This document shows positions 9,220-62,998 of a stretch of 64,000 nt of DNA, in pieces. Made by a program: the position numbers and the translations under genes. The notes beneath the pieces were generated by a model, which did not search any database, was not told the origin of the DNA, and worked only from the letters and a program-made list of their open reading frames with translations. The stretch spans positions 1 through 64,000 of the forward strand of contig JAICGN010000002.1 of the NCBI GenBank assembly GCA_025923075.1. The letters are read 5' to 3'. How positions within the stretch are numbered: position 1 is the stretch's first letter; each line of letters starts with the position of its first letter. Source of the DNA: Chitinophagaceae bacterium (GTDB lineage Bacteria; Bacteroidota; Bacteroidia; Chitinophagales; Chitinophagaceae).

Positions 9220-9272
9220 TTTGTTCGAAGTTTAATGGCTGAGATTTTCATCTCGCATAATTTGAAGAATAA

Positions 9273-9323
9273 TTATTTGCCCGGCTTATTGCTGCTATTT
9301 AGCTTCCGTTGCGTCGCACTCTT
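9273..9323 (+). repeat. Dispersed intergenic repeat, copy A (rpsO-pnp gap)
   Basis: This roughly 51-base element ends in TTGCGTCGCACTCTT and contains CCCGGCTTATTGCTGCTAT. It is about 85% identical by eye to copy C at 62925-62976 (opposite strand) and more weakly similar to copy B at 16806-16850. All three are in gaps next to housekeeping genes. It has no coding capacity. Confidence 0.65.
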
Positions 9324-9393
9324 GTAGGTCCGTATCGCTATTCAGCAATTTTCAAACTAGCAAATCCAAATGCGGGCTGGTAGAAACTAAGAG

Positions 9394-15486: not shown

Positions 15487-16764
15487 TTATACTCCAAATG
15501 CTTTTTTCACTTCGTTTACCATATCCAGTTTTTCCCAGGTAAACAATTCAACCTCGATTGTCTTTTCATTGTCTTTTCCTTTATTAAAAACTTTTTTCAC
15601 CACTTTTGGCTCACGACCCATATGACCATAGGCCGCTGTCTCTGCATAAATAGGATTGCGAAGTTTCAAACGTTGCTCGATCGCATAAGGACGCATATCA
15701 AAAATCTTTTCAACCTTCCTTGCAATCTCACCGTCAGTCATATCAACTTTTGCAGTGTTATACGTATCAATAAATAATCCGCATGGTTTTGCCACACCGA
15801 TTGCATAAGAAACCTGGACAAGCACTTCATCACAAACACCAGCAGCTACCAGGTTTTTTGCAATATGTCGTGTAGCATACGCGGCGCTACGATCAACCTT
15901 GCTTGGATCTTTACCGCTAAAAGCGCCCCCACCATGTGCACCCTTGCCACCATACGTATCAACAATGATCTTTCGGCCAGTTAAGCCAGTATCACCATGC
16001 GGACCACCGATCACAAACTTTCCCGTAGGATTGATGTGATAAGTGATCTTATCATTAAATAATTTTTGAATAGAAGGTTTGCATTGCTTTTTGACTCTTG
16101 GAACAATAATATTTATCACATCCTCACGGATCTTATCGAGCATCTTTTTGTCAGTATCAAAATCATCATGCTGTGTGGAAACAACAATCGTATCGATCCG
16201 AATCGGATTATTATTATCATCATATTCGATTGTCACCTGACTTTTCGCATCAGGACGAAGATATTTCATCTCTTTTCCTGCACGACGTGTTCGTGAAAGC
16301 TCCTGTAATATTTTGTGTGCAAGATCAAGTGCCAGCGGCATATAATTCTCCGTTTCCCTGGTGGCATAGCCAAACATCATTCCCTGGTCACCGGCGCCTT
16401 GTGCATTTGCCTTGGCATCAAAACTTAAATTCTTTACACCCCTGTCGACACCCCGGTTGATATCCGCACTCTGCTCGTGAATCGCAGAAAGTATACCACA
16501 GCTGTTGGCTTCAAACATATACTCCGACTTTGTATAGCCAATGCTCCGGATTACGTCGCGGGCAATATCCTGTACATCCAGGTAGCTCGTTGATTTTACT
16601 TCGCCGGCAAGTACAACCTGGCCAGTTGTTACCAATGTTTCGCAAGCCACTTTGCTTTGGGGATCGTAAGCCAGGAAATTATCAATTAATGCATCGCTGA
16701 TCTGGTCAGCCACTTTATCCGGATGTCCTTCGGATACGCTTTCAGATGTAAATAAATAAGGCAT
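15487..16764 (-). CDS. metK: S-adenosylmethionine synthetase
   Basis: MetK makes SAM from methionine and ATP. The 425-residue enzyme carries the family signatures [20 protein letters not shown] near the N-terminus, [12 protein letters not shown] and [19 protein letters not shown], plus [20 protein letters not shown]. It is slightly longer than the E. coli enzyme (384), as usual in this phylum. It has its own terminator. The roughly 165-base leader contains a terminator-like hairpin and one copy of a dispersed repeat, so leader regulation is possible. Confidence 0.98.
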
Positions 16765-16805
16765 GTCGATTTTAGAATTTAATATATGAGTTAAGCATGG
16801 TGTTT

Positions 16806-16850
16806 TTATTACCCCGGCTTCTGTCTATCCATTTAGCTCCAGTTGCGTCG
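16806..16850 (+). repeat. Dispersed intergenic repeat, copy B (metK leader)
   Basis: This copy shares TTATT, CCCGGCTT, ATTTAGCT and GTTGCGTCG in the same order and spacing as copies A and C, but is the most divergent. It lies inside the metK leader. Confidence 0.45.
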
Positions 16851-16903
16851 TGCCGGCTTACCCGGGACACGATTGGTTCGCTATGAGCATAAAGGAAATT
16901 CAA

Positions 16904-16927
16904 AAGCCCCTTCACAGCTCGGGGCTT
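16904..16927 (-). terminator. Terminator-like hairpin at the start of the metK leader
   Basis: AAGCCCC (16904-16910) and GGGGCTT (16921-16927) pair around a 10-base loop, and TTTTGAATTT follows on the minus strand. It could end the DUF4270 transcript. Because it lies downstream of the predicted metK -7 box, it could also attenuate metK. Confidence 0.65.
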
Positions 16928-16935
16928 AGCGGGTG

Positions 16936-16943
16936 CAAAGATA
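16936..16943 (-). promoter_or_regulatory. Promoter -7 box (TATCTTTG) for metK
   Basis: TATCTTTG on the minus strand is an exact TAnnTTTG match. A TTG lies only 15 bases upstream of it, shorter than the 19-base spacing at rpsO and tRNA-His. Predicted transcription start is near 16930. Confidence 0.55.
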
Positions 16944-62856: not shown

Positions 62857-62862
62857 AGAAAA

Positions 62863-62884
62863 CCCCCTGTCCCCCTGAGGGGGG
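62863..62884. repeat. C/G-run hairpin upstream of the trhO promoter
   Basis: CCCCCT (62863-62868 and again 62871-62876) is followed by AGGGGG (62878-62883). Either C-run can pair with the G-run. It lies where the trhO -33 element would be and may end readthrough from the DUF5686 gene or hinder the promoter. Confidence 0.55.
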
Positions 62885-62924
62885 AACTTAGGGTTGGATA
62901 TGCTGAATAGAATTGATTAAGTAA

Positions 62925-62976
62925 AAGAGTGCGACGCAAGAGAAGTTATATAGTAGCAATAAAGCTGGGTAAATAA
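62925..62976 (-). repeat. Dispersed intergenic repeat, copy C (between the DUF5686 gene and trhO)
   Basis: On the minus strand it reads TTATTTACCCAGCTT and continues to TTGCGTCGCACTCTT. It is about 44 of 52 positions identical to copy A (9273-9323), with a 15-base fully conserved end. Orientation relative to the numbering is opposite to copies A and B. Confidence 0.65.
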
Positions 62977-62998
62977 GACCAGGAGGAATACTGTCTAC

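Follow-up and report, generated by a model that had tools for sequence, protein, structure and literature searches.

A high-copy, mostly intergenic repeat of Chitinophagaceae, possibly of mobile origin

The window analysed here, a stretch of 64,000 nucleotides from a Chitinophagaceae genome (contig JAICGN010000002.1), holds three gene gaps with a similar short sequence, described preliminarily as an element of about 50 bases in the rpsO-pnp gap, the metK leader and the gap between a DUF5686 gene and trhO. Is the resemblance real, what is the repeated unit, and how might it have reached these spacers? The neighbouring genes were confirmed (rpsO, pnp, metK, trhO and the DUF5686 gene) and the recurrence at all three gaps stands, but the length does not. 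An alignment of 28 copies and a 92-position profile, R1, define the unit as one asymmetric arm of about 85 bp with a head and a tail. The features of the window are as follows, G000 being its own genome and G001 to G003 relatives from the same genus.

9267 to 9352, + strand: copy A, a full arm with its head at 9267 and its tail at 9352 (R1 E 4.6e-18), in the gap between the pnp start (9219, - strand) and the rpsO end (9422)
9310 to 9318, + strand: core dyad of copy A, TGCGTCGCA, read from the sequence
16801 to 16850, + strand: copy B, the head and the first half of the core only (R1 E 2.8e-4), with its head 37 bp upstream of the metK start (16764, - strand)
16851 to 16870, + strand: TGCCGGCTTACCCGGGACAC, occupying the position of the remaining core in G001 and G003
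16902 to 16928, - strand: hairpin AAGCCCC...GGGGCTTTT, next to the tail side of copy B, with the arm on one side of it and a promoter-like box on the other
16936 to 16943, - strand: TATCTTTG, a match to the consensus of the Bacteroidota -7 box; also upstream of metK in several relatives
62861 to 62891, - strand: CTAAGTTCCCCCCTCAGGGGGACAGGGGGTT, another hairpin repeat, frequently adjacent to arms and found beside many other copies
62898 to 62978, - strand: copy C, a full arm (R1 E 5.5e-19), with its head 21 bp past the DUF5686 gene end (62999) and its tail towards trhO (start 62780)
62925 to 62939, - strand: 15-base core of copy C, TTGCGTCGCACTCTT, read from the sequence

The arm and its core

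The match between copies A and C had been put at 44 of 52 positions, which is exact over that span (7 mismatches, 1 gap); their longest local alignment agrees in 58 of 76 columns (E 6e-11). Copy B is indeed weaker, with 35 of 45 columns in its best local alignment with A (E 2e-4). It covers only about the first 50 positions of R1, and the rest of its core is replaced. The perfect 15-base sequence attributed to A and C is present at 9309-9323 (+) and 62925-62939 (-). By itself it does not exceed chance in the window, where two occurrences with up to 3 mismatches were found and 1.25 expected (35 of 100 shuffles reach 2), and thus the evidence for a repeat comes from the complete element and from the genome. 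Genome-wide, the 15-mer occurs 30 times with at most one mismatch (15 per strand), compared with once for a reversed control. The alignments, these counts and the profile matches given below rule out a chance resemblance.

The arm runs from an AT-rich head, TTATTTTTATGTNNCCAGC, through CTATTNAGC, the core TTGCGTCGCACTCTT with its 9-bp dyad TGCGTCGCA, and GTAC, to the tail CTATTCAGCA. CTATTNAGC at column 30 and CTATTCAGC at column 73 form a direct repeat with a spacing of 43 columns. R1 was seeded from copies with near-perfect cores, so that conservation of the core is partly built in; the alignment and column statistics leave out copy B and two loci with an inserted palindrome (L008 and L024). 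Columns 47 and 51 of the dyad covary among 306 distinct copies (265 C-G, 31 T-A, 8 other), and this change may be a single event inherited within one subfamily.

Further palindromic repeats lie within or close to the core of many copies; on an uncounted reading they are CCCGATAGCTATCGGGA, CCGCCTCAGGCGGA, GTTTACCCTGAGCTTGTCGAAGG, CCTGCCTGCCGGCAGGCAGG or a longer stretch from ACGCTCC. At one orthologous site the core is short in G000, and G002 has about 100 bp more at that point. Insertion into the core, or its replacement, can explain head-only matches such as copy B. The motif CGTC lies inside the dyad and precedes the stem in some palindrome-inserted copies. As a separate observation, a Y1_Tnp-like fragment in G000 (locus L064, contig C162, about 150-590) is closely flanked by CCCGATAGCTATCGGG and CCTGCCTGCCGGCAGGCAGG, palindromes that also occur inside some arms and that may be the REPs belonging to a Bacteroidota RAYT.

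Copies in the genome and in the family

The many copies that three in 64 kb had suggested were found. A genome search with the 15-base core and the full element gave, beyond the 15-mer counts above, at least 142 R1 matches at E<=0.1 in G000 (4.98 Mb, 274 contigs), a lower bound from the best 150 of 2032 candidates scored. Context was counted for 114 of these (the 25 weakest and 3 outside the fetched stretches were set aside). The copies are mostly intergenic: the midpoint falls within an ORF of at least 120 aa in 6 of the 114, and a looser rule (ORFs of at least 80 aa, open ends) gives overlaps of more than 30 bp in 19, both counts following our own ORF rules rather than a gene caller. In a few copies inspected by eye for a possible coding role, the reading frames ran into stop codons. 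The ATP synthase operon contains two copies, one after the subunit c gene and one after the delta gene.

The placement is polar in one respect: in 70 of 98 copies it is the head that lies closer to a gene. A T-tract target before the head is unsupported as the source of this polarity: in the 15 bp concerned, T exceeds A in 71 and falls below it in 52 of 133 copies. No external target motif was seen outside the arm. The second repeat, CCCCCTGTCCCCCTAAAGGGGGAACTTAG (62861-62891 in the window, with many loci in G000), is often found immediately 3' of a stop codon, with an arm head following about 75 bp further on; other occurrences have no arm.

A shared regulatory RNA site had been proposed as one explanation, and a regulatory element in 5' or 3' UTRs would suit the metK leader (16764-16943), in which a promoter-like box, a terminator-like hairpin, the arm and the start codon follow in that order. 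It would also suit TANNTTTG: of 48 start-side cases, 10 have this sequence past the tail on the gene strand and 5 have it on the opposite strand, compared with 2.0 in shuffles. Neither orientation towards genes prevails, however: the 89 copies that have both neighbours and no overlap comprise 36 and 31 codirectional, 14 divergent and 8 convergent cases. Folding of the copies, a check suggested at the outset, gave an RNAalifold consensus of 3 pairs with zero covariation, and Rfam gave no match at gathering score at the copies (permissive scans of copies A and B returned one weak match, E 0.36). We therefore rejected a structured RNA, and consider any regulatory RNA element very improbable.

Beyond G000, R1 matches at E<=0.001 occur in 38 of 60 genomes of the family (G000 included) and in none of 39 genomes from other families of the order. 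Among 247 genomes across the phylum, 5 match at E<=1e-6, all within the family. Filters in these multi-genome searches were strict, and absence means no strong match. The distribution is patchy even within the genus: G001, G002 and G003 each have at least 43 matches, and G004 and G005 have none. The 19-mer TTGCGTCGCACTCTTGTAC was found in at least 118 stretches of named genome contigs. The 80 titles among the matches listed comprise Segetibacter, Foetidibacter, Limnovirga, Flavisolibacter, Pinibacter, Niabella, Ferruginibacter, Lacibacter and unclassified Chitinophagaceae, Chitinophagales or Bacteroidetes bacteria, most of these unclassified ones being MAGs. From the named matches we infer that the family in question is the Chitinophagaceae.

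Orthologous sites and single arms

At the rpsO-pnp site of copy A, an arm in the same orientation is present in G003, G032, G043 and G030, and none was found in the other 9 of 13 genomes with the locus. At metK, arms lie head-to-start in G001 and G003 and, more weakly, in G043. Those of G001 and G003 are full arms that keep the second half of the core, which is replaced in G000. In all three (G000, G001 and G003) the arm and hairpin lie between the promoter-like box and the start codon. The metK site of G002 is a clean empty site, with the promoter-like TATCTTTG, a short leader and the start codon; the hairpin at 16902-16928 (-) is missing there, as is the arm. No arm was found at the trhO place of copy C in G001 or G002, and the arm upstream of trhO in G030 is opposite in orientation to copy C. 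The trhO homologues themselves look stop-interrupted or split in G043 (L195/L197) and G005 (L196).

Over 60 site-genome comparisons with G001-G003, a same-orientation arm was present in 33, an opposite arm only in 1, and none in 26. These derive from 30 high-scoring sites plus copy B, of which 26 of 31 were comparable (18 of 78 site-genome pairs gave no comparison). The median spacer change was -149 bp where the arm is absent and -8 bp where it is present; the 26 absences are not all clean, with spacer changes from -544 to +528. The absences would reflect mobility as well as deletion. Near-identical copies were not found, the best nearest-neighbour identity being 0.805 among 74 copies of G000 and 0.818 among 26 copies of the MAG GL140_2_metabat_114; identities no higher than this argue against a recent burst. 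That MAG (JANXWM) is the densest genome seen, with 43 matches in 76 kb fetched (L213, L220, L234, L250 and others), a density biased by the selection of loci for holding the core.

Columns that are informative among core-selected paralogues are better kept between orthologues, with conservation of 0.47, 0.53, 0.63 and 0.80 in head columns grouped by rising information (5, 16, 16 and 5 columns), and information correlates with orthologue conservation in both head and tail columns (Spearman 0.67 and 0.65). The orthologues were found by the core alone (28 pairs, a few of them doubtful, with 3 or 4 mismatches in the core), and the head columns avoid the core-seeding bias. Selection on some columns would produce this pattern, and so would exchange between copies. 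Single sites hinted that the interior changes faster than the spacer; the overall comparison does not bear this out, with 0.74 for the whole element, 0.72 for the head-side spacer and 0.555 for the tail-side spacer.

This constraint bears on the main rival to a mobile origin, namely that the arm is a host-maintained DNA site, bound by a host protein at gene boundaries with its head to the gene, acting on transcription or the nucleoid and kept in its copies by selection. The preference of heads for genes, the retention of informative head columns and the joint change of dyad columns 47 and 51 all favour it. The retained columns could also be kept by exchange between copies, and the dyad change may be that one subfamily event. 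Furthermore, 22 of the 60 family genomes, two congeners included, have no match under the strict filters, the arm is missing in the 26 comparisons above, the whole element is hardly better conserved than its head-side spacer, and the G030 arm at trhO is reversed. We consider a host-maintained site unlikely, if worth serious attention.

Close pairs of arms (<350 bp apart) are strongly oriented in public genomes, with 49 tail-to-tail, 3 head-to-head and 0 head-to-tail among 52; this set comprises 118 loci picked by the 19-mer (888,775 bases, 287 matches). G000 has 5 tail-to-tail and 3 head-to-tail pairs among 8. The median length of a pair unit is 213 bp. The 49 tail-to-tail pairs and the unit length speak for a classical MITE. 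Such an element would be palindromic and about 210 bp long, with inverted arms of 80 bp at its two ends; an IS transposase would have moved it, and single arms would be products of later erosion. But within a pair the arms resemble each other no better than arms taken from different pairs do (identity 0.587, n=45, vs 0.592), and beside 131 single arms no second arm was found by an ungapped score, which can miss gapped partners (on 49 known partners its median is 35.8 and its tenth percentile -54). These results suggest that the unit is the single arm and not the pair. Target duplications were looked for in 46 pairs with flanks and not seen: no length or offset rose above shuffled pairing, within the sensitivity that fuzzy arm boundaries allow. 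Between tail-to-tail copies in public genomes, the longest ORFs of 28 stretches (300-3500 bp) matched other Pfam families in 18 cases and none in 10, with no transposase among them. On this evidence an autonomous parent was rejected among those ORFs, and we regard the classical MITE as improbable.

The pairs also touch on the host-maintained site, which would accommodate an almost exclusively tail-to-tail arrangement of arms that are not alike. Partners of nearest-neighbour arms are only slightly more similar than random ones (0.612 vs 0.591, p 0.005, with a control not matched by genome). Partner arms thus appear barely co-inherited, and each may answer to its own gene.

Known systems and a possible origin

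Three known kinds of element resemble the arm in part. REP/BIME sequences and REPINs (GTAG- and CGTC-tagged) are likewise short, high-copy and extragenic, occur as singletons and dimers, and are rarely head-to-tail, as the arms are in public genomes, although 3 of the 8 close pairs in G000 are head-to-tail. A REP is 20-40 bp with a long stem-loop, however, whereas the arm is about 85 bp, its consensus fold has the 3 pairs noted above, its one inherent palindrome is the dyad TGCGTCGCA, and the other palindromes present look like variable inserts. REPIN/RAYT copies flank a Y1_Tnp gene. G000 has 5 Y1_Tnp genes, and the search for a REP-associated transposase that had been proposed found no convincing arm at any of these loci (the best, L063, has E 0.33 and was not counted), so that a REP with its RAYT was rejected.

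One REP study reports a shortage of head-to-tail dimers among REPs and describes CGTC-type REPs as having no dedicated transposase known (PMC3733652), a likeness to the arm, which has CGTC in its core. A 2018 survey describes Bacteroidetes Y1 genes of subclass 2.6 that have atypical secondary structures on their flanks, copies of which occur at other places in the genome (PMC6006769).

The arm is found in occupied and empty states at orthologous sites. MITEs such as NEMIS/Correia and ERIC/IRU elements are also non-coding, intergenic and present or absent at such sites. Terminal inverted repeats are lacking, both within the arm and, given the dissimilar partners and the partnerless singles, between arms, and neither a target duplication (46 units, fuzzy boundaries) nor a parent insertion sequence was found. 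IS200/IS605 single-strand insertions share the asymmetric unit, the lack of target duplication and the AT-rich left side; the arm differs in having no subterminal hairpins, no external target motif seen and no enzyme assigned. The suggestion of a REP-like or small non-autonomous element thus survives as the best reading, shorn of the defining features of REPs and MITEs.

In that best reading, which we consider about an even call, the arm is an old, high-copy, Chitinophagaceae-specific, REP/BIME-like mobile repeat, probably non-autonomous, with a core that draws in other palindromes. A putative enzyme acting in trans would have inserted single arms into AT-rich spacers, in a REP- or IS200-like way. 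Afterwards the arms would mostly have been inherited and frequently lost, and other palindromic repeats would have come to target the core dyad. The copy number, the patchy distribution and the mix of occupied and empty sites point to a mobile origin, and the lack of close copies to old age; the single asymmetric arm, the absence of target duplication and the few head-to-tail pairs suggest the REP- or IS200-like mode, with a mechanism presumably of a single-strand type.

Several observations count against the mobile repeat. Retention in the same orientation (at rpsO-pnp in 4 other genomes, at metK in 3) and column-specific conservation could reflect host selection. The lack of near-identical copies and of target duplication, the Y1_Tnp loci without an arm, the absence of a Pfam transposase between inverted copies, the head-to-tail pairs of G000 and the 19 copies overlapping an ORF under the looser rule weigh in the same direction. 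A more specific conjecture, which we hold to be rather unlikely, is that arms mark gene boundaries in a polar way: a DNA-binding protein specific to the family would recognise the dyad together with the two CTATTNAGC repeats on either side of it, which are 43 bp apart. The head would face the gene whether at its start or at its end, and the host would keep at least 100 such sites while the unconstrained bases drift.

We found no description of this element in the literature, including for the 11-mer TTGCGTCGCAC (most subscription papers lay outside the search), and the repeat family is apparently undescribed. It adds a high-copy non-coding repeat to the Chitinophagaceae, where no such description was found, and one that fits no standard class: single arms, tail-to-tail pairs with unrelated arms, heads that tend to face genes, a palindrome-bearing core and no transposase found. 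Arms have reached basic genes (metK, pnp and the atp genes), where they sit in leaders and operon gaps and so have changed the spacers. With zero to at least 43 copies within one genus, mobility, loss or host maintenance are directly testable in Segetibacter, Foetidibacter and Limnovirga.
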